Shown piece by piece: positions 1,273-28,142 of a stretch of DNA of 34,953 nucleotides. The position numbers and the translations under genes are program-made. Positions within the stretch are counted from its first letter, which is position 1. The number at the start of each line of letters is the position of its first letter. The DNA is from a virus: IMG/VR virus record IMGVR_UViG_3300032665_000114, positions 1-34,953 of that record, one strand, 5' to 3'. The notes under the pieces are model-generated. The model saw only the letters and a list, made by a program, of their open reading frames with translations. It had not been told where the DNA came from and made no database searches.

Positions 1273-2775
1273 ATGGCCCGGTTGGATCTCATCGGCGGAG
1301 CATACTACGGCCGGAGTGTGCTCTCCGGGGCGATGAAATGCGTTAACCTTTTTCCGGAGAAAAATCGAAAGGACGCGACCAGCCCAGTTAGTCATTACCA
1401 ACGACCGGGATTGAGGGCGCTGAGCGCTCCGATCGTCTCCGCCCCCGGCCGAGGCATTTGGCGTGCTTCTAACGGAAATGGTTACTGTGTCATCGGGCAA
1501 AACTTGTATTCCCTGGACGCTAACTGGAACTTGACTCAGGTTGGCACCTTGGTCTTTCCCGGCGCGACTGTCGTCTCCGCCGCTGACAACGGTACGACAA
1601 TGGTCATCGGGGATGGGACTGGCGTTGGCTACCAGGTGACTTTGGCGACGAACGCGTTTTCTCTCATCGCCGATCCGACGAATATTTTTGCCGGGACGAG
1701 TCAATGGCAGTACCTGGACACGTTTTTGCTTTGGGCCTTGCCGAATAGTCAACTTTTTGGCAGCTCCCTGTCGAACGAAGTCACCTTCGACGCAACGTAT
1801 GTCGCGGGGAAGACAGGGTATCCGGACAAGCTCAAGACAATTTATGTCAACAAGCGAATTTTGTATCTGTTGGGAGACCTCAAGTCTGAAGTCTGGTATG
1901 ATGCAGGAAATTCTCTTTTCCCGTTTGCGATTCTCCCTGGAGCCTACATCGAACACGGCATTGCGGCGATTCGGAGCGTTGCGAGCGCCGACACGAGTGT
2001 TTTCTGGCTCGCGCAGAATCTTCAAGGCATCGGACTGATTCTGAGACAAAAGACTTACGAGACCAAGGTTATCTCGAACCACGCGATTAGCTTCGCGATT
2101 CGGCAGATGATCGCAAATGGCGCAGATGTCTCCGACGCCGTGGCGTACACCTACACCCAAGATGGGCATTTGTTCTACGTCATCACGTTTATTTCCGGCG
2201 ACCAGACCTGGGTTTACGATGACGCGATCGGGGACCCGGAGCTGGCTTGGCATCAACGCGGGTGGACCGACAGCGACGGAGTGCTTCATCGTGAACGGCT
2301 CATCCAAGCCGCGTATATCAACGGGACGAATGTTGGGATTGATTGGCAGAATGGAACCATCTACGCCCTCGATCCGAATTATTACTTCGATCAGGTGAAT
2401 GGGGTCGCCGGGGCAATTAACTACACGAGGACCTTTCCGCAGGTCTGGATGCTAGATGGCCCAAATGGACCTGTCGATGCCTCCGGCCACGGGATGCAGT
2501 TGAGCAAGTTCACGCTCGACCTCGAGTGCGGCAACGGACCGATCGACATCAATGGATTGCCAGCAAGTGTGAGCCTCCGGTACTCCCGCGACCGGGGAAA
2601 GACATTCTCAGCGAGTGTGCTCCAATCCGCCGGGGAGCCTGGCAAGTATGAAACCCAGCCGAAATGGGGACCCCTCGGCTTCTCTCGCTTCCCGGTGTTC
2701 GAGGTCAACTATTCCTTCGCCGGCCAAGCGACGCTTAACTGCGCCTGGCTTGATGGAAAGGTGGCGACGCAGTGA
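1273..2775 (+). CDS. P22 gp10-like packaged-DNA stabilization / tail hub protein
   Basis: 500 residues, close to the 472 of P22 gp10. The N-terminus (ARLDLIGGAYYGRSVLSG then CVNLFPEK) matches the opening of gp10-type hub proteins, in which a short strand is followed by a conserved (C/V)NL(Y/F)PE motif. The middle holds repeated beta-propeller-like strands (YLLGDLKSEVWYDAGN, GIAAIRSVASADTSVFWLAQN, DGHLFYVITFISGDQTWVYD), as expected for this family. In P22, gp10 binds gp4 and forms the hub that carries the needle and tailspikes. No strong ribosome site is visible before ATG. The stop codon overlaps the next start (GTGA), so the next gene is translationally coupled. Confidence 0.8.
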   Translation: MARLDLIGGAYYGRSVLSGAMKCVNLFPEKNRKDATSPVSHYQRPGLRALSAPIVSAPGRGIWRASNGNGYCVIGQNLYSLDANWNLTQVGTLVFPGATVVSAADNGTTMVIGDGTGVGYQVTLATNAFSLIADPTNIFAGTSQWQYLDTFLLWALPNSQLFGSSLSNEVTFDATYVAGKTGYPDKLKTIYVNKRILYLLGDLKSEVWYDAGNSLFPFAILPGAYIEHGIAAIRSVASADTSVFWLAQNLQGIGLILRQKTYETKVISNHAISFAIRQMIANGADVSDAVAYTYTQDGHLFYVITFISGDQTWVYDDAIGDPELAWHQRGWTDSDGVLHRERLIQAAYINGTNVGIDWQNGTIYALDPNYYFDQVNGVAGAINYTRTFPQVWMLDGPNGPVDASGHGMQLSKFTLDLECGNGPIDINGLPASVSLRYSRDRGKTFSASVLQSAGEPGKYETQPKWGPLGFSRFPVFEVNYSFAGQATLNCAWLDGKVATQ

Positions 2776-13528: not shown

Positions 13529-13547
13529 GAAGCGGCCCGGCCGCTTC
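13529..13547 (-). other. Perfect GC-rich inverted repeat between polymerase and ATPase genes
   Basis: GAAGCGGCC and GGCCGCTTC separated by one base form a 19-base palindrome that begins at the polymerase stop codon. As RNA it would fold into a 7-bp stem with a 5-base loop. There is no T tract on either side, so it is not a classical terminator; an RNA-processing or pausing site is possible. Confidence 0.4.
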
Positions 13548-15160
13548 TAGTTCATCCGACGGGCAAGCCCGGACTCACGACGGCGGAGGTCCGGGGAACC
13601 AGGCTTGAACTTGACCAGCCCTTCGAGATTCAGGCGGGGAATTTTCTTCCCCTCGACGCGTGCTTTCGCTTGGTCCGCCTGAGTCACCTGGCTCCCCCAG
13701 TTCCAGCCGACCTTGGCCTCCCCCGGAACGACATAACGGCGTCCGTTGGGGGCGACGAGTTCGACTTTGATTAGTTCAAGAACCCGGCCGATGATTTCCG
13801 CCTCGTCAAGGCTTTCGGGATACTGGAAGGTAATCGAGTCGTAGGTCTGGGCCAACAACTCAATCCGGCGCTCGTACTTCCAGGCCCGCCAAAGGCCCAG
13901 GTTCATTCTGTCTGCTGTTGTCGATTGAGGCAAAAACGCAATAGCTTCTCGTAAAGTCGCATCATCTCCGGGTCGTCCAAAAAAATGTCTGCGACGGCCA
14001 AAAGGGGTCGTAATGGATTGGGTGGTTTGCAGCTGCTCGGCTGTCCACCTCCACCAGCGAGGGATCGCGGGGAAGGCGGGGAGGATTTCCGGAGTTCCGT
14101 TTTGGCGGTTTTCAGGGGCTCCTCGGCAATATCGTGCTTGAAATTCCTCCATAAGCGAGGTCGGGACTTTGAGACTTCTAGCAGCCGTCCAAGCTGTTCC
14201 CATGTAGTTCGAGAGATGTGAACCCTTTTTAGCCATGTCCCGGTAGGAGAATTCTCGATAAAAATTTCTGTCGGCGATAGCGCGATCTGCAGCTTTATTT
14301 CCTGTCCATCCGAGCCCCGGCCAAATCCGCTTAGCGTTATTCGTGTGGAGGTCTCCTCCTTCACAATTGTTAAGGAAATCCCAGTCATTGAAAAGGCATC
14401 CGCAGAAGAATCCGACATCTCTTGCCTCCACTTGTTCAAGGTCGATTACAGCCATTCGGTAGCCGGGGTCAGCGGTGAAGACATATCTCAACCCCGGTGC
14501 GATATTTTGAGCATTCCGACCAGTTCCGAATGCGTTCTCGGAGGAGCTGGGCCTCCCCGTCTCCGTTCCAGCGATGTTATACGCCGCGCGGAAGCGGCCA
14601 TCCGGGTCGATCTCGGTCTCGAAGACTTCAAGTTGCTTCGCGAGGTCCCGAATGGTCAAGATGAGATTGACGAAAGGTCTGGCATACAAGTATTCATCTA
14701 GCTTCTCCAGAGCCTCCCGGTCTACCGAGACTCGCGGGATGCCTTTTTTCCGCAGGATGACTTCGGGGAGCCGAAGTTCGGAGTAGAAGAATTCTTTCAG
14801 CTGTTTGACTGACCTGGGGTTGAGCCCGGAGGACCAGACGGAAGTCGCCAAGGTATCCAACAACCCTTGAAGTTCCCCAATCCGGCCCCGAAGCTCCTCC
14901 GCAGCCTGACGTCTTGCCAGCTCATCCACCGCGAAGCCCCGCATCATGAGGTCGAGGTAGGGGGCCTGCAAGGCCCGCTCGAAGGAATAAATTCCAGCCC
15001 AGGAGGACTTGCTGTGGCTTGCCACCCGGTTAATCTCGTTGAATATCTCCGTCGTCAGACAGCAGTCAAGTCCGTTGTAGACCTGGAGCCCGTCATCGGC
15101 AGACAGCCGGCGTCCTCCATAGACATTCCCCTCGGCAAGCTGGCTCGTGTCAACTAACAT
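13547..15160 (-). CDS. Family A DNA polymerase (polymerase domain with only the ExoIII end of the exonuclease)
   Basis: 537 residues. Motif A is VIDLEQVEAR (238-247), motif B is RDMAKKGSHLSNYMGT (307-322) and motif C is TYDSITFQYP (439-448). Motif C has Tyr-Asp-Ser where Pol I has His-Asp-Glu; the catalytic Asp is kept. The N-terminus (1-40) contains VYNGLDCCLTTEI, the ExoIII motif (YxxxD) of a DnaQ-like 3'-5' exonuclease, while ExoI and ExoII are absent. Those two motifs are found at the C-terminus of the UDG fusion encoded at 15812-16996, so the exonuclease domain is divided between two genes. The start overlaps the stop of the DUF1937 gene (TGATG). It is the replicative polymerase candidate of the phage. 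Confidence 0.9.
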   Translation of the reverse strand: MLVDTSQLAEGNVYGGRRLSADDGLQVYNGLDCCLTTEIFNEINRVASHSKSSWAGIYSFERALQAPYLDLMMRGFAVDELARRQAAEELRGRIGELQGLLDTLATSVWSSGLNPRSVKQLKEFFYSELRLPEVILRKKGIPRVSVDREALEKLDEYLYARPFVNLILTIRDLAKQLEVFETEIDPDGRFRAAYNIAGTETGRPSSSENAFGTGRNAQNIAPGLRYVFTADPGYRMAVIDLEQVEARDVGFFCGCLFNDWDFLNNCEGGDLHTNNAKRIWPGLGWTGNKAADRAIADRNFYREFSYRDMAKKGSHLSNYMGTAWTAARSLKVPTSLMEEFQARYCRGAPENRQNGTPEILPAFPAIPRWWRWTAEQLQTTQSITTPFGRRRHFFGRPGDDATLREAIAFLPQSTTADRMNLGLWRAWKYERRIELLAQTYDSITFQYPESLDEAEIIGRVLELIKVELVAPNGRRYVVPGEAKVGWNWGSQVTQADQAKARVEGKKIPRLNLEGLVKFKPGSPDLRRRESGLARRMN

Positions 15161-15576
15161 CAGGCTCTCTCCACGCCAGCGACACTTGTCCCAACTTGGC
15201 CGGTCAGTCGCCAGTCCGCGTTATCGAACTGCCAACCCGCCCAGCCTTTCGGTTCAATGCCTCGGATCGGAATTTTGCGCTCGAGGGCAAAGACTAGTTC
15301 TTTCTTAAGGCCGATGGAGTCCTTCCAGCCATCAATTAGCAAGATGTACAGTCCGCTAGCTCGCTCCAGCATCGCCTGGTTGTAACCCCACCAAAAACCC
15401 GCATCGGTGGGCATTTTGAACTTGGTGCTGATCTCATGGTTGTGGATAATCGGGGAGTAGACCCAATACTTATTCCACAGCAACCAATAAGTCGCCTTTT
15501 CGGTCTGGTCGAATCTGGCCTTGACGACCTCGGGGTCTTTGTGGGAGTACGGGCTGGCAAGGTAATAGAAACTCAT
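15160..15576 (-). CDS. DUF1937 protein (nucleoside 2-deoxyribosyltransferase-like fold)
   Basis: 138 residues. MSFYYLASPYSHKDPEVVKA at the start, a central WVYSPIIHNHEI and the later GLYILLIDGWKDSIGLKKEL define the DUF1937 family, related in fold to nucleoside 2-deoxyribosyltransferases and DUF4406. Nucleotide-metabolism or modified-nucleotide roles have been proposed for such folds; none is shown here. The gene sits between the two parts of a divided exonuclease/polymerase. It has an ATGA overlap with the upstream 66-residue gene and a TGATG overlap with the polymerase. Confidence 0.85.
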   Translation of the reverse strand: MSFYYLASPYSHKDPEVVKARFDQTEKATYWLLWNKYWVYSPIIHNHEISTKFKMPTDAGFWWGYNQAMLERASGLYILLIDGWKDSIGLKKELVFALERKIPIRGIEPKGWAGWQFDNADWRLTGQVGTSVAGVERA

Positions 15577-15811: not shown

Positions 15812-16996
15812 TTATTCATCCGCCTTTACTCCAACTTCGTCGCTTCGGTGCTTTCGCATGAGTTTCCACGCGGGCTCGGAGGTATAGATGCTGCCGAGGA
15901 AGCCGAGGCCCTTCTGCAGCTCAGGAAAAATCGAATGATGCAGCAACATGGTGTCTTCCGCACAGTTTGCAACCTTGAGCCCGACTCGGAGCAAATACTG
16001 CAAATCATACATTCCGTTTTGAAACACCTTAGGCAACGTCGAAGCCAAGAGCCTTGAGACAGCGAGCCAAGCTCGCTCCTCCTCGGCGCGTCCGCACCAA
16101 TAGCTCCCATTCCCGGTCGCCGAGTGACTGTCGAAGGGGATAACCATGGCTTCCGTTGAGCTTCTGGCAAAACCGATACAGGTGATCATTCCCTTGCTCG
16201 TCTCTATATCCACACTCAATAATGCGGGTGACGCGGAGATTGTCTGGGAAGTCCATGCCTCGACCTCATCTATTGTTGGGTTGATTAGGATCGACCGGGA
16301 CGGTCGAATGATAACTGGGCTTGCCGACTCCCTCCACGCCTTCATCAAGTCCGCGACGACGATGGGCCTCCAGGCCCAGTTCCGCATGACTCCGGCGGGG
16401 TGATAGGAGGCCAGGGTCTTGAGTCCTCGGGGTTTTTGACTCGTCGATACAGTGCCTCTAATTCCGCCAATTCCAGTGGTTCCGAGGACAGCCCAACAGG
16501 CGGTGTTGCCAAGGGCGAGGATGAGATTGGGGCTTGTGGCTGATATTTCCGAAACGAGTCGATCAACTTCTGGCAGGAACTCCGGACGGAGATAATTTCC
16601 GGTCGAGATTGGGCCATGGACATAATTCTTTCCTTTGTCTGGCAAGGCAGTTTTGGCAACACTGAGGTTCTCGAGCTTGTTATCCGGCGGGCGGAGGGCG
16701 AGCACATTCGTCATGCCGATACCGGCGGCGCGTAGCCAGGCTTCCCGACGTTGCACCCACGCTCCGCCGCCGAAGTGGAACAGCTTCCGGGCTTCGGCAT
16801 GAAGCTCCGGGAAAACATCCGGCATGGCCTCGCCGAGCATCAAGAACAATTCCTTTCCACTCGATCCCACAAACGGCCTCCGGCAACCCGCCTCGGCTTC
16901 CCCCCAGGCTTCGCCGATGAGCAGCATCCTGAGTGAAGCCCCGGGGGTCATCCCGGAGGTCGCGGCGAAGGGGGGCAACGGCACGTGCTCGGTCAT
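15812..16996 (-). CDS. Fusion of family-4-type uracil-DNA glycosylase and 3'-5' exonuclease N-terminal part
   Basis: 394 residues. The start at 16996 was chosen because it overlaps the previous stop (ATGA) and follows GGAGG by eight bases. Residues 23-215 are a UDG-superfamily domain: LLIGEAWGEAEAG (26-38) corresponds to GEAPGxxE and PFVGSSGKEL (41-50) to PFxGxxG, and SYHPAG (197-202) is the second catalytic motif. Residues 255-394 are the start of a DnaQ-like exonuclease: ExoI SVDIET (261-266) and ExoII NGMYDLQYL (327-335). It ends soon after GLGFLGSIYTSEPAWKLMRK, before ExoIII, which is present at the start of the polymerase gene. N-terminal UDG-like domains are known in some phage polymerases; here the chain has been broken. 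Confidence 0.85.
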   Translation of the reverse strand: MTEHVPLPPFAATSGMTPGASLRMLLIGEAWGEAEAGCRRPFVGSSGKELFLMLGEAMPDVFPELHAEARKLFHFGGGAWVQRREAWLRAAGIGMTNVLALRPPDNKLENLSVAKTALPDKGKNYVHGPISTGNYLRPEFLPEVDRLVSEISATSPNLILALGNTACWAVLGTTGIGGIRGTVSTSQKPRGLKTLASYHPAGVMRNWAWRPIVVADLMKAWRESASPVIIRPSRSILINPTIDEVEAWTSQTISASPALLSVDIETSKGMITCIGFARSSTEAMVIPFDSHSATGNGSYWCGRAEEERAWLAVSRLLASTLPKVFQNGMYDLQYLLRVGLKVANCAEDTMLLHHSIFPELQKGLGFLGSIYTSEPAWKLMRKHRSDEVGVKADE

Positions 16997-17235
16997 TTCC
17001 ATCCCCTCCAACCAGGTAGCTGACCATCCGCCAGATTTTCTAACCAATTCTTCACTGTTGCCTCGTCGAAGTTTGCCAGATGACCTTGGACGATTTTCAT
17101 TTGACCCAGGGTGAAGTTCATCACCTTCATCAGGTCCCGAATGGCCTTCGGAAAGGTCTCGTACAGGCCGTATTCCGCCTCGACCTCCCTCCTCCTATCG
17201 TTCGCCACGGGCGCGTCGTTTGGCTCGATCGACAT
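16993..17235 (-). CDS. 80-residue protein, unknown function
   Basis: Mostly helical, acidic N-terminal half (ANDRRREVEAEYGLYETFPK) and a C-terminal part (NFDEATVKNWLENLADGQLP). No family recognised. The strong ribosome site GGAGG six bases before ATG supports the start even though it lies 41 bases inside the end of the ParB/methyltransferase gene. Its stop overlaps the UDG-exonuclease start (ATGA). Confidence 0.75.
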   Translation of the reverse strand: MSIEPNDAPVANDRRREVEAEYGLYETFPKAIRDLMKVMNFTLGQMKIVQGHLANFDEATVKNWLENLADGQLPGWRGWK

Positions 17236-18679
17236 TCAGGGCCTCCATTGCCAGTCGGGTCATTCGGGGGTCGATTTCCAGGCCGAGGACGCGGGAGGCC
17301 CCGAGGTTCTCGGCGGCGCGAAGGCTGGTACCAGAACCGCAGGTCGGATCGAACAGACTTGTATGTTCATCCACCAACATTTCCATAAAGTGCGTCAACA
17401 TCGGCTGAGGCTTGGCCGATTGATGAATCGACTTGTCTGTCGGGGCGGCATACGCATCAGCTTTGATTCGGACGATGTTACGTTTTCCACGAGAGCCAAG
17501 TAGACAGGTCTCGTACACATGCCGGGGCTCGTAGTTCGGACTTGCCGCGATTCCGACGTTGTCAGATTTCATCCAGATGAGCGGGAACCGGGACCAGGAA
17601 ATGCTGGGCGCAAGCCGGGCAAAAGTCTCCCTCGTCCAGGACTCGATTTCCCACTTGTTCGAGAACCAGAACATGATGTGGGCTTCGACAGACATGATCT
17701 TGTCCAGGTTCAGGCAGAGACACTCGACCAGCTGTTGGTACGTGCTAGCAGAGTCATCATACCCTTCTCCCGCATCCCGGCCCATTTGACTCCGATTCGC
17801 CCCGGTGCGGACCCCGTTGGAGGAGAACAAATTGACCCCGTAAGGGAAGTCACAGTGAATGAGGTTGAACTTCTTCCCGGTGTAGGTCGGCAGCCAGTCG
17901 AGCAGGCTGACGTTTAGAATCGGATCAAGGTCGAAGGTGGGGAGGGTGAGCTGGGTTGCTGGTCGAGGGACGGTTGGTGTCGTTGGCGCGCTGACAACCG
18001 TTCCGTCTTGCCAGTCTTCGATCGCTTCGATGGTCTCGGGGCTCGGGAACAGTTGAGGGTCCGTGGCTGCTGCCTCCCCGGCTGGTAGGTCCTTCGCCGC
18101 TTGCAGGGCCTCCGGCGTGCTGGCTTCCAGCAATTCCTCCAACACATTCCCATCGGCGCGTTTTTGCCGTCGGAGCAGAATGTTGTACGCCTCCCGCACC
18201 GTTCCGGCTTTTGCGACATGTTCATCCTCCAGGTCCGGGTAGACCTTCAGATACATCGAAATCGTACCAGCGGTCAACGCGCAGTTTTGCGCGGTCAGGC
18301 TCGCGGTCCAGTCTTGGTCGGTGGTGCAGTAGAGGTCGTGAATTCTGGCCACGGCCGAGACCAGGTCCTGCCACGCGAGGTCGGACCTCTTGATGTTTTC
18401 TTCGAGTTCAATGATCTGGCGCTCGATCGGGTCGAGGGAGTTGAGGAACCGAGCGTAGATTTTGCTATGCCCTAGCTCGATGCACGATTTCAACCTTCTC
18501 TCCCCGGCGACAAGACGGTAGCCGAGGCCCTCACGCTCGACGATAATCGGCTCGATGAGGCCCCGGAGGGCAATGGACTCCCGGAGACCATCTGTCTTGA
18601 CCTCCCGCCGCTGTCGGCCTTCCCTCGCGATGTTGATAAGGCTGATCTCGATCGACTCTGAATGATCTAACAACGGCAT
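17195..18679 (-). CDS. ParB-like domain fused to a beta-class DNA (N4/N6) methyltransferase
   Basis: 494 residues. The N-terminal domain (about 8-150) has the ParB/Srx nucleotidase motif YRLVAGERR (54-62) and the following ENIKRSDLAWQDLV helix of the ParB family. Residues about 255-490 are a methyltransferase with catalytic motif IV DFPYG (277-281) before the SAM-binding motif I FDPTCGSGTSLRA (443-455), so the motif order is class beta. Such ParB-methyltransferase fusions are known in phages and mobile elements; they could protect phage DNA from host restriction. The target sequence cannot be read from the protein. The ribosome site is weak. Proline/threonine-rich linker 200-250. Confidence 0.85.
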   Translation of the reverse strand: MPLLDHSESIEISLINIAREGRQRREVKTDGLRESIALRGLIEPIIVEREGLGYRLVAGERRLKSCIELGHSKIYARFLNSLDPIERQIIELEENIKRSDLAWQDLVSAVARIHDLYCTTDQDWTASLTAQNCALTAGTISMYLKVYPDLEDEHVAKAGTVREAYNILLRRQKRADGNVLEELLEASTPEALQAAKDLPAGEAAATDPQLFPSPETIEAIEDWQDGTVVSAPTTPTVPRPATQLTLPTFDLDPILNVSLLDWLPTYTGKKFNLIHCDFPYGVNLFSSNGVRTGANRSQMGRDAGEGYDDSASTYQQLVECLCLNLDKIMSVEAHIMFWFSNKWEIESWTRETFARLAPSISWSRFPLIWMKSDNVGIAASPNYEPRHVYETCLLGSRGKRNIVRIKADAYAAPTDKSIHQSAKPQPMLTHFMEMLVDEHTSLFDPTCGSGTSLRAAENLGASRVLGLEIDPRMTRLAMEALNVDRAKRRARGER

Positions 18680-19284: not shown

Positions 19285-20082
19285 TCAGGCTCCCTTGAGG
19301 TCTCGGAAAAACTCGGCCAACCCGGTCGCTTGGTCGTACTCCGGCTTGACTTTGCCTGGGTTGGAGTTTTTCAACTCCACAATCCCTGCCGTGTTGGTGA
19401 CGATTTTACGTTTTTGATTACTCCCCATCCCGGTCGTCTTGACCATCAGGGCGGAGTTGAAGTACAGGCCGACCTTCGGGGAGAGGGCCTGCCCGGTCGA
19501 GGTCTCTGGATACCCCCGTTGCGGCCCGCCGTCCTCCCCGATGTACTTGATATGACAGTTCACGATGACGTTACATTTGACGTTTTCGTCGAACAACATT
19601 TGCAACAGTGACTCGACTAGTTGCTGACCTTGGTACCAATCCGACTGTTGCGGGGCTTGGCCGAGCCTCCCATTCATGGACAGGTTAAACGCCATCGCGG
19701 CTTTGCCGAGGGTCGTCAAGGTGTCGATGACCAGGACATCGCGCTCGCCCCAGGAGGTCAGAGGCCCAAGGTCGGCGGTTTCGGTCTTCCAGTTCTGCAA
19801 CAAGCTCACCGCCCGGTTCCAAACTGTCGCCTTGGCTGGCACAAGTTTCCCCGCCGCGTTTTTCATGGAATCCGTAATCGTCTCGTACTCCACCGTGGCC
19901 CCCTCCTTCTTGCCTTTCAGCACGTTTGCCAAAATGTCCAGGCCATTGTCCAGGTCGAGAATCCGGAGGTTGTATCCCGCGAGAACCAGACTGACCAACG
20001 CCCCGGTCTTCCCGGCCCCTGAGTCTCCGATCAACAACATTTTGGTCGTTCTGGCCGACTGGTGGTTTTCTAGCTTTCCCAT
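19285..20082 (-). CDS. Sak4-like RecA-fold recombination ATPase
   Basis: 265 residues, a compact RecA core. Walker A is GDSGAGKT (19-26), Walker B is DVLVIDTLT (115-123), and VNCHIKYI may represent a sensor strand. It lacks the N-terminal and C-terminal domains of host RecA, which fits phage Sak4-type single-strand-annealing ATPases; these are usually encoded beside an SSB-like protein, as here. It also lies in one operon with a PD-(D/E)XK exonuclease (21311-22279), giving a plausible nuclease/annealase/SSB recombination set. A 13-base overlap with the preceding Tat-signal gene shows translational packing. Confidence 0.8.
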   Translation of the reverse strand: MGKLENHQSARTTKMLLIGDSGAGKTGALVSLVLAGYNLRILDLDNGLDILANVLKGKKEGATVEYETITDSMKNAAGKLVPAKATVWNRAVSLLQNWKTETADLGPLTSWGERDVLVIDTLTTLGKAAMAFNLSMNGRLGQAPQQSDWYQGQQLVESLLQMLFDENVKCNVIVNCHIKYIGEDGGPQRGYPETSTGQALSPKVGLYFNSALMVKTTGMGSNQKRKIVTNTAGIVELKNSNPGKVKPEYDQATGLAEFFRDLKGA

Positions 20083-20429
20083 GGTGGCGGTGTCCTGTAG
20101 TTTTTTGGAAGTCTAATGCGTGTGCTGTTGTCAAGCGCGAACGAGTCGTCGTATTGGAGTCCATTTAAGAATTTGTTGGAATTTTTCCACACTGAGACTG
20201 CTTCTCGCGTAATCATCTGAATGGTTAAAATTCCACCCTTGCCATTAGTCGCGACAACAGCCTCACCATTCGCAAATCCCCAGTCAGTTTCGGCGACAAG
20301 TTCTCCAATCTCCTCCTCGATCGACTTGACCGGCATTAGGCTGGCCACTCGGACAATCGCCGGGGCGGCCAGGAGCAGTACGAGGCCTTGGATGAAACCT
20401 CGTCGAGTCGGCGCGATGATTTCAGTCAT
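20070..20429 (-). CDS. Small protein with twin-arginine signal (Tat signal protein A)
   Basis: 119 residues. The N-terminus has PTRRGFIQGLVLLLAAPAIV (7-26): a Thr-Arg-Arg-x-Phe-Ile twin-arginine motif followed by a hydrophobic core and Ala-Pro-Ala, then ASLMPVKS. The APAIVRxxSLMP type signal is frequent in small phage proteins. The C-terminal part (FANGEAVVATNGKGGILT...) is unassigned. It begins 8 bases inside the end of the TatA-like gene, so it is translated after TatA and likely in balanced amounts. It would be anchored in or exported across the inner membrane by a Tat pathway. Confidence 0.75.
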   Translation of the reverse strand: MTEIIAPTRRGFIQGLVLLLAAPAIVRVASLMPVKSIEEEIGELVAETDWGFANGEAVVATNGKGGILTIQMITREAVSVWKNSNKFLNGLQYDDSFALDNSTRIRLPKNYRTPPPWES

Positions 20430-20634
20430 CGGTTCTGCTCTTCGGCAGGGCCTTCTTCAGCTCCGCCTCAACCTGCTCCTTCGCCTCGGTCGTATCCGAC
20501 AGACCTCGCCGAAGGTCCCCGAAGCCCTTTCCAATGTCTCCCATGATGGAGGAAATCTTCCCTTTTCCTCCGAATAGAACCGCGGCGACACAGATGAAGA
20601 TCATCCAGTGAGTGATAGATAGACTGCCTAGCAT
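20422..20634 (-). CDS. tatA: TatA/TatE-family twin-arginine translocase subunit
   Basis: 70 residues with ribosome site AAGGAG nine bases before ATG. The N-terminus (SLSITHWMIFICVAAVLF) gives a single membrane helix, followed by the hinge FGGKGK and an amphipathic helix (SSIMGDIGKGFGDLRRGL), then a charged tail ending in SRTDD. This is the exact TatA plan: short periplasmic N-terminus, TM helix, FG hinge, G-D-x-G-K-x-x-x-x-x-R/K-x-G helix. TatA forms the variable-size translocation oligomer of the Tat pathway. Here it is phage-encoded and flanked on both sides by genes for Tat-signal proteins. It may specialise the host translocon for phage clients or form pores itself. Confidence 0.85.
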   Translation of the reverse strand: MLGSLSITHWMIFICVAAVLFGGKGKISSIMGDIGKGFGDLRRGLSDTTEAKEQVEAELKKALPKSRTDD

Positions 20635-20646
20635 GGTGGTGGCTCC

Positions 20647-21054
20647 TTATGCTTTGATTGTTCCGTCGGGGTTGAACCAGGAGAGCGGCTTGTGGTTCAG
20701 GTAACGATGCTTGTTTTCCCCTATCCTGGCTGCCAATTTTTGCACCAAGTCGGGCTCATTCCGAAGAATGACTTTCATAGGAACCGCGCCGAGATTGTTC
20801 AACCATCCCCAGCCGTCAGTGCCAAGCTCTGTCATGATGTCTTTGGCGACAACCGTGTGGATTTCCCGAATCATCGGCGTAAGCACCCGCTCGGCATAGG
20901 AGTCGAGAATGACTGGTGAACTCGGCAAGATCAACTCCGGCACGACGGCGAGTTTCATCGGCGTGATGATGCGGAGAACCGCCGGGGCGGCGATCAGGCC
21001 GGAGAGGATTCCGAGGAATCCTCGGCGGGAGGGGGAGGTCAGCAGTTCGCTCAT
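20647..21054 (-). CDS. Small protein with twin-arginine signal (Tat signal protein B)
   Basis: 135 residues. PSRRGFLGILSGLIAAPAVL (8-27) is a canonical Ser-Arg-Arg-x-Phe-Leu motif with a hydrophobic core. The mature part contains ILDSYAERVLTPMIREIHTV and an aromatic segment (DGWGWLNNLGAVPMKVIL). Function unknown. Its start overlaps the stop of the upstream 87-residue gene (ATGA) and its stop is 12 bases before the TatA-like gene start. Confidence 0.75.
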   Translation of the reverse strand: MSELLTSPSRRGFLGILSGLIAAPAVLRIITPMKLAVVPELILPSSPVILDSYAERVLTPMIREIHTVVAKDIMTELGTDGWGWLNNLGAVPMKVILRNEPDLVQKLAARIGENKHRYLNHKPLSWFNPDGTIKA

Positions 21055-21314
21055 GGTGTAATGATCCTTACTTGGGTACCTCGCCCCGGCAACTTACTCA
21101 CCGTGGCAAACTGTCCCTTGGCAACTAGGCTGGGGTAGATTGACGTAGTCCTACCGCTGAAACCTGTCACAACGAATCGTTGCAGTCGGGGCAATGGGAC
21201 ACGCCAAAGCTTACCCACTCCGTGGACTCCGTCAAACTCGATGATTTCCCCGACGGCCAAAGCTGAATCAAGTTCAACCGTGAACTTGTCCAAGATTTTG
21301 ACCAGCCTTGTCAT
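21051..21314 (-). CDS. 87-residue protein, unknown function
   Basis: The ATG at 21314 overlaps the stop of the nuclease gene (ATGA) and has AGGA before it; a TTG six bases upstream is an alternative. The predicted fold is mostly beta, with hydrophobic strands (KFTVELDSALAVGEIIEF, LQRFVVTGFSGRTTSIYP). No family recognised. Its neighbours are the nuclease upstream and a Tat-signal protein downstream. Confidence 0.7.
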   Translation of the reverse strand: MTRLVKILDKFTVELDSALAVGEIIEFDGVHGVGKLWRVPLPRLQRFVVTGFSGRTTSIYPSLVAKGQFATVSKLPGRGTQVRIITP

Positions 21315-22279
21315 AACCAATCCTCGCTAACCCCTGGGGTCTTGACTCGAAACCCCCGTTGCAACAACCCTGCTCTGACTCCCGGCTTGGCCGCACAGAC
21401 CTCCCGAAAGTCACACCCGCCGTAAAGGCCGCAGGATTTGTCATTCTGGGGCCAGTGGGCTGCGATCGCGCAAGCCTCCATCTGACCAAGCCAATAATGG
21501 CTATCCCGCAACCACTCATCCAGGCCTTCCTCGGTCCTCGGCACCAAGCCTCGGTCGAAGCGGGAGAACGTCACTTTGACTTCAATCCCATCTACGATGA
21601 GCCCCTCGACCGGGAAGTCGAAGGCGGTTTTGGCAGCAATCGAATAAAGGGAGAACTGGTTATCGGGACTAAATTTCTTGTAGAAGTCGATACCCAGGGC
21701 ATGGCCTGTCGTCTTAATATCCTTTACGAAAAACTTCCCGCCGAGTTCGACAATCTTGTCCAGCTTTCCGATGAAGATCACAGACTCGTTGGCCCTGGTA
21801 CGGTAGCCCGAGTCGATCGCGAAGTCAAGCTCCACCGCCGGCTTCCCGCTGGCCAGTCTGACCGTCCTGCACGGGTCCGGCGATTCGAGGTTCCATTTAT
21901 CCAGGTACCAAACTAGGGTCCTCACGGCTCCTTCTCGCGTCTTCGCGTTGTCGCCGGAAGTCCAGGGGCGGTGGAGCTTTGAGTCCCAGGTAGCGCGAAG
22001 CGCCCACTCAACCACATCTAACAAGGCAGCTTCGTGCTCCATCCCAGCGAGAACATTCAGGTCATATCTCTCGCTCCCTTGATGAATCAACGTTCCGAAG
22101 GTCAGGTGGACGCTGCGATTAAACGGCTCGAGGCCAAGTACAACCGAATAATAATACTGCCTTGGGCACGCTTTGAACGGCCCGAGGCTGCTGCTGTTGA
22201 CCTGGACCTGGAGACCAGGGATGGCCTTGGAAAACCTCGGGTCGGAGAGGAACGCTGGCTGGGTTTGTATCATTTCCAT
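21311..22279 (-). CDS. PD-(D/E)XK superfamily (RecB/Cas4-like) nuclease with four-cysteine cluster
   Basis: 322 residues; start at 22279 follows GGGAGG by eight bases. SSSLGPFKACPRQYYYSVVL (30-49) and LTFGTLIHQGSERY (59-72) are the opening motifs of PDDEXK_1 nucleases; GKLDKIVELG (171-180) with VKDIKTTG (185-192) are the catalytic Asp and (D/E)xK residues. Cys38 near the start and Cys283, Cys289, Cys295 near the end form the spacing of an iron-sulfur clasp as in AddB/Cas4/Dna2. Together with the Sak4-like ATPase it likely forms the phage recombination module. Confidence 0.85.
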   Translation of the reverse strand: MEMIQTQPAFLSDPRFSKAIPGLQVQVNSSSLGPFKACPRQYYYSVVLGLEPFNRSVHLTFGTLIHQGSERYDLNVLAGMEHEAALLDVVEWALRATWDSKLHRPWTSGDNAKTREGAVRTLVWYLDKWNLESPDPCRTVRLASGKPAVELDFAIDSGYRTRANESVIFIGKLDKIVELGGKFFVKDIKTTGHALGIDFYKKFSPDNQFSLYSIAAKTAFDFPVEGLIVDGIEVKVTFSRFDRGLVPRTEEGLDEWLRDSHYWLGQMEACAIAAHWPQNDKSCGLYGGCDFREVCAAKPGVRAGLLQRGFRVKTPGVSEDWL

Positions 22280-22482
22280 TGTGCGGCCTCCCGACATGCG
22301 AGGATAACCGCAGAATACATAGCAAATTTGTCTTCAGCTGAGGTTTCAAGCGGTGATGCACACCATTCGATCATCGCCCATTCGATCACTTGGAGAAGCA
22401 ATTCTCTCGGCTGTCGATTTAACTCACAACCGAACATATTGATAGTTCGTCCTGATGGGGGAAAAGCGGGTTCGAGCGACAT
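22270..22482 (-). CDS. 70-residue protein, unknown function
   Basis: Contains INMFGCELNRQPRELLLQVI and a helical end (AEDKFAMYSAVILACREAAQ). It overlaps the nuclease start by 10 bases and is 12 bases after the preceding gene, so it is in the same operon. No family recognised. The ribosome site (AAAGG) is modest. Confidence 0.65.
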   Translation of the reverse strand: MSLEPAFPPSGRTINMFGCELNRQPRELLLQVIEWAMIEWCASPLETSAEDKFAMYSAVILACREAAQWK

Positions 22483-26842: not shown

Positions 26843-27132
26843 TCCTTAACCTGCTCCAATCGTTCTTTCACCGCGTTTAACTGTGACTCAAGCCTCGATT
26901 TTTGGTTTTCTTTCCTTCTCACGTAGGAATCAAACGCGAGTTCCACTGTCGGATACGCGAAACGTTTTCGGGCATCGGTCAATACAAACTTTCCTACTCC
27001 CCAATTGTCAAGCCAAACTCCTTTTGGAGTCTTTCTTGTCACTGTCAATTCTCGTTTTTGATAACTCGGAGCCGTTCCTTCCCAGTTATCACTATCCTCG
27101 AACCTATACCAGACTTCGTGGTCCTGGGTCAT
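26806..27132 (-). CDS. 108-residue protein, unknown function, -ELSRRFK end
   Basis: Start at 27132 was chosen from GGAGG five bases upstream; longer upstream reading is only the antisense-like shadow of the neighbour. The N-terminal part has HEVWYRFEDSDNWEGTAPSY and strands RELTVTRKTPKGVWLDNWGV; the C-terminal half is a coiled coil (KENQKSRLESQLNAVKERLE). It ends VVGELSRRFK, like the next protein upstream. Function unknown. Confidence 0.7.
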   Translation of the reverse strand: MTQDHEVWYRFEDSDNWEGTAPSYQKRELTVTRKTPKGVWLDNWGVGKFVLTDARKRFAYPTVELAFDSYVRRKENQKSRLESQLNAVKERLEQVKEGVVGELSRRFK

Positions 27133-27165
27133 TTGAACCTCCGACTTAACTCCGCCAACAATTCC
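27128..27165. repeat. Direct repeat, copy B
   Basis: Second copy of the 26-base sequence of 26805-26830, again placed exactly over a stop/GGAGG/start junction. Confidence 0.7.
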
Positions 27166-27578
27166 TCCTTCGACAACAACCCCACATCCGGCTTCAACTT
27201 CTCCACCTTCAGCGCGAGGGCCAGCAACTCCTCCCTCAGCCCGACAATCGTCACGACTTCGTCTTCCGGCGGTGGCGACCAGGACCTCCTCGGCCCGGAA
27301 TGACCACCGCCAACTCCCGCCCCTTTGACCACCATCACGACCGACTGGTCTCCAACCAGATAACAAATCTTCCCTCCATCCTTCCCGGTCCGCTTCACCA
27401 GCCCGGACTCCGTCGCTTTGTGCAGAAACCCGGAGACCCCGCCGATGGTGACGTTCTTCCTCTCGTGAGTCAGGGCCTCGTAAAGATCTCCCGCCGTGAA
27501 CACCGGCGGGAGAGCCCTCCCTGTCCACTCCGGGTCCTTCAACGCCGCGTAGGTCGCCTTCGAGGTCGATTCGGTCAT
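27129..27578 (-). CDS. 149-residue winged-helix-like protein, -ELSRRFK end
   Basis: Start at 27578 follows AAAGGAG. Residues about 25-75 (FTAGDLYEALTHERKNVTIG, then SGFLHKATESGLVKRTG) look like a small winged helix with a basic recognition helix and a wing. The C-terminal part is acidic/leucine-rich helices (LREELLALALKVEKLKPDVG) ending LLAELSRRFK. DNA binding is inferred. ATGA overlap with the neighbour. Confidence 0.65.
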   Translation of the reverse strand: MTESTSKATYAALKDPEWTGRALPPVFTAGDLYEALTHERKNVTIGGVSGFLHKATESGLVKRTGKDGGKICYLVGDQSVVMVVKGAGVGGGHSGPRRSWSPPPEDEVVTIVGLREELLALALKVEKLKPDVGLLSKEELLAELSRRFK

Positions 27579-27763
27579 CGGGGTTCTCCTTTGGTTTGTT
27601 GTTCCACGCAAATTGCCTCCTTGCGAAGCACTTGTCCCCGCGACCTTCGGTCTCGTTCATGCCATTCGTTCCGGCACTTCGTGCAGCAGAAGACCTTATG
27701 TGGAGCGGAGGACGGTAGCTCGCCGAGGGGCCTTCCGCAGTTTTTGCAGCCCAGGTCAGTCAT
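27575..27763 (-). CDS. 62-residue zinc-ribbon protein
   Basis: Start at 27763. Contains GCKNCGRPLG and KVFCCTKCRNEWHERDRR, a CxxC...CxxC ribbon followed by basic residues and a Gln/Glu-rich tail. Similar to small nucleic-acid-binding zinc ribbons of phages. It overlaps the next start (ATGA) and the upstream gene by 8 bases. Confidence 0.7.
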   Translation of the reverse strand: MTDLGCKNCGRPLGELPSSAPHKVFCCTKCRNEWHERDRRSRGQVLRKEAICVEQQTKGEPR

Positions 27764-28142
27764 TTCCCTGGTCCTTCTCCTTGGCATCAAGTAGCTTCCT
27801 CGCATCATCAAGCCCCTGGCTCCAACCACCTTGCGGCACCCTCGCACTCCCAGGCTTTCCGACCACGCCGGCCAGCGCCGCGCGAAGCATTTCCTCCCCT
27901 TGGGCCACAAAGAAACCATAACTCTGCATATCAAACGCATTCGGGAACTCATCCCCTCTCTGCCTCACCAAAAACATCACGTACCCCATCGCTGCGGCCT
28001 CCCGCATCGCGCGGGCTTCCTGGGTCTCCCAGGCGCGGAGAGGGCGAGCAATAGGCTCGGGAAGTGAGGCACTTGCAGTTGCCAACGCAGCTGTGGCGAC
28101 TGCCTCGTCCACCGCTTGCATTGCGGAAGTCAGATTGGTCAT
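27756..28142 (-). CDS. 128-residue protein, unknown function
   Basis: Ala-rich N-terminus (VDEAVATAALATASASLPEP), then a helical segment (ARAMREAAAMGYVMFLVRQR) and the conserved-looking SYGFFVAQGEEMLRAALAGV. The end is acidic (DARKLLDAKEKDQGND). No family recognised. AGGAG stands seven bases before ATG. Confidence 0.65.
   Translation of the reverse strand: MTNLTSAMQAVDEAVATAALATASASLPEPIARPLRAWETQEARAMREAAAMGYVMFLVRQRGDEFPNAFDMQSYGFFVAQGEEMLRAALAGVVGKPGSARVPQGGWSQGLDDARKLLDAKEKDQGND

Follow-up and report, generated by a model that had tools for sequence, protein, structure and literature searches.

Pieces of a P22-type coat protein behind Tat-like signals, next to a TatA-like gene, in an uncultured P22-like podovirus

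What does a gene for a TatA-like protein do in the recombination operon of a phage, between two genes whose products begin with twin-arginine signals? The question is raised by a linear contig of 34,953 bp, an IMG/VR record of an uncultured virus, which was analysed over its whole length (hereafter the window). An earlier note had described a 70-residue TatA between two RR proteins on the minus strand, and the ORF coordinates agree with this description. The observation is confirmed, whereas its interpretation is partly supported and has changed in kind. The striking feature appears to be a set of export-tagged coat pieces, accompanied in one case by TatA, and not a trio of export genes. The earlier note had not recognised the passengers as coat pieces, nor that the group has a fourth member, the gene for P3.

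The virus and the layout of the operon

Gene content identifies the virus as a P22-like podovirus. Its P22-like morphogenesis is evident from a gp10-type head closure/stabilisation protein; a DNA ejection protein is also encoded. No terminase, portal or coat gene was identified in the window. Proteins common to the window and contig L007 are ~50% identical, and comparison with L007 places the expected coat gene of this phage to the left of the start of the window. After the morphogenesis genes come those for replication and recombination, in a block that runs leftwards. The features that concern us here are the following:

1273..2775, plus strand, P22 gp10-type head closure/stabilisation protein, nearest relative in Pseudomonas phage PAE2
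19285..20082, minus strand, Sak4-like annealing ATPase, adjoining gene downstream, part of this operon
20070..20429, minus strand, P1, 119 aa, TRRGF, Tat-like module and coat N-arm/F-loop piece
20422..20634, minus strand, tatA-like gene, 70 aa, TM helix, FGG hinge and amphipathic helix
20647..21054, minus strand, P2, 135 aa, SRRGF, Tat-like module and coat P-domain helix piece
21051..21314, minus strand, P3, 87 aa with the ATG start (89 aa with TTG at 21320), signal-less piece of the coat I-domain
21311..22297, minus strand, PD-(D/E)XK exonuclease, adjoining gene upstream, part of this operon

The genes are packed tightly and with overlapping ends, as the earlier note had read them: P1 overlaps the end of TatA by 8 bp and the start of Sak4 by 13 bp, P2 and P3 overlap by 4 bp, and a gap of only 12 bp separates TatA from P2. 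Shine-Dalgarno-like sequences are clear and codon use is phage-typical for TatA and P2; codon use is less phage-typical in P1 and P3.

Elsewhere in the window, the DNA polymerase is split over ORFs 13547-15160 and 15812-17047 (minus strand), both of which match phrog_17, and a nucleoside 2-deoxyribosyltransferase-like ORF (15160-15576, minus strand) sits between them. ORF 17195-18679 (minus strand) encodes a 494-aa protein combining a ParB N-terminal domain with a DNA methyltransferase domain. A strong GC skew of -0.278 is local to positions 27001-28000, the rest of the contig being mildly skewed.

The TatA-like protein and the Tat-like module

The TatA-like protein is real by homology and of the alphaproteobacterial type, as judged from profile and sequence comparisons. 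It matches Pfam TatA_B_E (PF02416) with E=3e-4 and 20.4 bits (cut-off 21, hence 0.6 bits short; E=1.9e-5 within its own record) and solved TatA chains with E=0.0075-0.014. Its identity to TatA of alphaproteobacterial loci is 39-42%; four of these matched loci belong to Hyphomicrobiaceae, where tatB- and tatC-like genes come after tatA. Because of this identity the phage host is probably an alphaproteobacterium. The predicted structure (pLDDT 65) comprises a TM helix (residues 4-21) and an amphipathic helix (residues 27-61) with FGG between them, and the equivalent of D31 and the FG hinge are retained; the model has the TatA plan described in the earlier note. Length, TM helix, FGG hinge, amphipathic helix and D31 equivalent are thus as in bacterial TatA (PF02416), the closest of which lie in Hyphomicrobiaceae tatABC operons. 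In contrast to these, the window TatA is phage-encoded, has no adjacent tatB or tatC, and carries Leu at the position of E. coli F39, which is Phe in all six aligned relatives. In E. coli, the F39A substitution leads to trapped TatA assemblies and to loss of CueO export (PMC10092561). The Leu bears on the activity of the phage TatA, where it may matter, and not on its homology.

The earlier note had suggested looking for the same trio in other phages, and this search returned nothing: tatA was found in none of 85 whole phage records (80 of them relatives of the exonuclease locus), and the exonuclease-Sak4 interval of 80 related loci holds no tatA, no coat pieces and no credible RR proteins. 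Two pattern scans of IMG/VR found no TatA relatives, with short patterns that diverged copies can escape. The tblastn matches of TatA among isolate phages are bacterial-named or host-like tat-annotated records, or unannotated 1.8-kb records, and judged by record names and annotation none looks like a phage tatA. Within the collections searched, no contig but this one has the trio. PHROGs probably already holds a phage TatA-like family, since phrog_29532, listed as of unknown function, is matched by E. coli TatA at 1.3e-13; this family has matches in 12 of 14 control genomes. The window TatA differs from it in matching it weakly (E=0.073). As to the slot itself, the distance between the exonuclease and Sak4 genes in the relatives L051-L130 varies from an overlap to ~1.6 kb, which suits a slot with changing gene content.

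The two RR proteins share their first 42 residues with 40% identity, following the pattern RRGF..L.AAPA[IV][VL]R...MP. The motif [ST]RRxF, an h-region and a basic residue after it are present in both P1 (TRRGF..LLLAAPAIVR) and P2 (SRRGF..LIAAPAVLR). By eye, an APA follows the h-region in each and is a candidate signal peptidase site. The modules lie as follows:

20322..20411, minus strand, Tat-like module of P1, PTRRGFIQGLVLLLAAPAIVRVASLMPVK
20947..21033, minus strand, Tat-like module of P2, PSRRGFLGILSGLIAAPAVLRIITPMK

When a profile of the module was run against 17,137 frames, the best unrelated frame did no better than E=0.009. Given this result and the identity shared by P1 and P2, the TRRGF and SRRGF signals, called canonical in the earlier note, are more than chance. 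Two module scans added six more proteins in five other phage contigs (the near-identical L132 and L133 being counted as one), in which unrelated passengers stand behind the module, and in this wider set the pattern reads RR.F..GL..L[LI]AAPA[IV]V[RK]...[LI]MP[VI][KR]. In a search of three alphaproteobacterial genomes the module had no match, and among 385 alphaproteobacterial genomes (the class of G088) only two gave matches, partial ones within frames of 347 and 541 aa. Since it is nearly absent from these 385 genomes, the module appears to be a phage-associated element and not a host leader; its reading as an ordinary host Tat leader is unsupported by the scans of alphaproteobacterial genomes. 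It resembles bacterial Tat substrates with AAPAIVRA-type leaders in its RR motif, h-region and trailing basic residue, and differs from ordinary bacterial Tat leaders by the additional conserved MP[VI][KR] and by its near absence from those 385 genomes.

Coat-protein pieces behind the module

Behind the module, P1 and P2 continue with segments of a capsid protein. A tblastn search with P1 against phage records returned P22-type coats (PAE2 coat, 50% identity, E=5e-6), and the coat-homologous stretch of P1 is 58% identical to the coat of L007. The proteins of L007 and L008 were first read as relatives of P1 and proved to be full-length, plain coat genes. With a profile of five coats run over the six-frame window, the best three matches are the neighbouring genes P1, P2 and P3:

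20097..20231, minus strand, P1 coat-homologous stretch, P1 residues 67-111 corresponding to coat 5-56
20776..20910, minus strand, P2 coat-homologous stretch, P2 residues 49-93 corresponding to coat 96-139
21060..21272, minus strand, P3 coat-homologous stretch, coat 239-315 (241-315 with the profile of five coats), I-domain

For each of the three, none of 2000 shuffles attains the real score. A profile of 15 coats, run over 10,076 open frames (the window plus 90 phage loci), places P3 (E=1.7e-8), P1 (E=5e-7) and P2 (E=0.024) at the top, the next frame having E=2.6; from these values the coat homology of P1 and P3 is firm and that of P2 moderate, helped by its position. By homology, P1 and P2 are chimeras of the Tat-like module followed by a piece of P22-type coat protein; the C-terminal 40 aa of P2 lie outside the coat-homologous part. 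In the anatomy of the P22 coat (PMC9965877), the pieces correspond to the N-arm and F-loop (P1), the P-domain helix (P2) and the I-domain (P3). They cover about 52, 44 and 76 of 396 coat positions, respectively, and are partial, diverged and internally deleted, P1 keeping the conserved core MITREA..NSN.FL..QYDDSFA. Lacking the complete HK97 fold (A, P, E and I parts), P1, P2 and P3 are pieces and not coat proteins. Whereas P22-type gp5 (PF11651; phrog_283) unites these regions, here they are separate short pieces in distinct genes, two of which bear an N-terminal Tat-type module. The model of P3 (pLDDT 48) has as its first PDB match the I-domain of the CUS-3 coat (6mnt), with that of P22 in fifth place; this match is supporting only, because the model is of low confidence and its alignment included coat rows. 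An origin from a single inverted coat gene was considered and rejected: the pieces follow the coat order on the plus strand yet are encoded on the minus strand, which one inversion fails to produce.

The other module proteins carry different passengers. That of L132 corresponds to the N-terminal arm of a major head protein from phrog_371 (0 of 300 shuffles as good), a capsid family unrelated to the P22-type coat. In L140, the passenger weakly matches tail-protein repeats of the same phage, and a module joined to a tail-protein piece is possible there. Among the eight module proteins, three hold a capsid piece, perhaps one a tail piece, and four have no traced virion protein (two in L131, and those of L134 and L138). 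Pectate-lyase-like passengers seen by eye in L134 and L138 had no profile support and are not claimed. The two tandem module proteins of L131 (2995-3799, plus strand) are encoded directly 5' of what by eye appears to be a large terminase gene. The earlier note had counted a lack of conservation of the trio in related phages against its own proposal; on that point the collections searched are unfavourable, although the pattern of module plus virion piece recurs.

Possible roles of the cassette

The reading that we favour, with a probability of about 0.35, is that an accessory cassette uses Tat to send coat-derived baits to the inner membrane or through it. Four genes, P3-P2-TatA-P1, would have been inserted as a unit between those of the exonuclease and Sak4. 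P1 and P2 would be the baits, the phage-wide Tat-type targeting module preceding their P22-type coat pieces, while P3, an I-domain devoid of signal, could travel only with a partner; signal-less partners are known to be co-exported by Tat (PMC4273604). Host TatBC, aided or altered by the phage TatA, would deliver the pieces to this membrane or beyond it, and the membrane-located or exported baits would hold coat binders. These may belong to a competing phage (its scaffold or coat) or be a capsid sensor of the host. The N-arm of the P22 coat is the scaffold docking site (PMC9965877), and major capsid proteins are sensed or bound by bacterial immune systems (PMC9712102; PMC11312562). The model draws support from the coat homology of three adjacent genes, from the recurrence of the module with a second capsid family (phrog_371 in L132) and from the position of TatA next to Tat-type proteins, and a bait that holds coat binders at the membrane, or takes them through it, would fit all parts. 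Against it, coat, scaffold and the known capsid sensors are cytoplasmic, and full export would remove the bait unless it were bound first. Moreover, four of the eight module passengers are untraced to virion proteins, the trio occurs in one contig, the coat pieces are partial and diverged, and the phage TatA is devoid of the essential Phe. A variant that we consider very unlikely turns Tat into an ejector: baits would bind cytoplasmic coat recognisers, either host capsid sensors (of the CapRel or Thoeris types) or the scaffold of a rival, and remove them by hitchhiker export, with the phage TatA widening or boosting the pore. The bait model would, like Tab (PMC10884400), act on virion assembly; Tab, however, stops tail assembly, and coat pieces or Tat tags do not appear in the outline and abstract of its report.

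The same chimeras could also result from mosaic gene birth, in which the module would repeatedly have taken up stretches of late genes, yielding small membrane or secreted products whose coat parts have no coat-related role. This is possible, though we lean against it. Each module-bearing phage has different passengers, P1 and P3 show weak codon adaptation, the coat pieces are diverged and internally deleted, and virion genes form such a large part of phage genomes that random capture would often take them; functionless gene birth accounts for the variety of passengers about as well as the bait model does. It fits less well with three distinct coat pieces adjoining in one operon, with the fusion of the module, in two unrelated phages, to the extreme N-terminus of the respective coat type, and with the core retained in P1. 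An artefact, whether from chimeric assembly of the metagenome or from host tat sequence included in the viral contig, is hardly credible: although the source is an uncultured IMG/VR contig whose second copy was not found, the genes are translationally coupled within a phage operon, adjacent tatB and tatC are absent, the identity to every full-length host tatA match (36-49%) denotes a diverged gene, GC resembles that of the flanks, and a module-capsid fusion is also present in an independent phage.

Two further readings place TatA at the centre. Phages often change the envelope of the cells they infect. This habit, together with the adjacency of TatA and two Tat-type proteins, speaks for the proposal of the earlier note, in which TatA would send P1 and P2 to the envelope to exclude superinfecting phages or to time lysis. 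We found no positive evidence for either role and regard the proposal as unlikely, since the neighbours are DNA recombination genes with no recognised lysis gene beside the trio, and the passengers are coat pieces and not receptor-binding or channel proteins. Of its broader claim, that the phage supplies a translocase subunit for its own clients, the adjacency of a phage TatA to proteins with Tat-type signals stands, but the supposed clients are coat pieces on a phage-wide module. Alternatively, the phage TatA may jam the translocon of the host: it would be a dominant inhibitor, P1 and P2 would serve as the substrates that trap the machinery, and the outcome would be an altered envelope or a block in the export of a host factor. 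Such jamming is a live rival because of the Leu at the essential F39 position, where the six relatives have Phe and where the E. coli Ala variant traps TatA assemblies and abolishes CueO export (PMC10092561). We nevertheless hold it distinctly unlikely, as replacing Phe by Leu is less drastic than replacing it by Ala, both D31 and the FG hinge remain in place, and the coat pieces would be left unexplained.

In the open-access literature we found no description of such proteins and no precedent for such a use of Tat, and the earlier note was aware of no described function for such a trio; export-tagged coat pieces with a phage TatA form an arrangement without described precedent known to us. 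If the bait reading is true, phages would route pieces of their own shell proteins into a bacterial export pathway, and the recognition of capsids by host immunity would become linked to protein export. Even if only gene birth is at work, the recurrence of the module with virion pieces in unrelated phages would show the origin of some unannotated small phage genes. The phage TatA, in which an essential residue is changed, is a natural variant that lends itself to direct testing.
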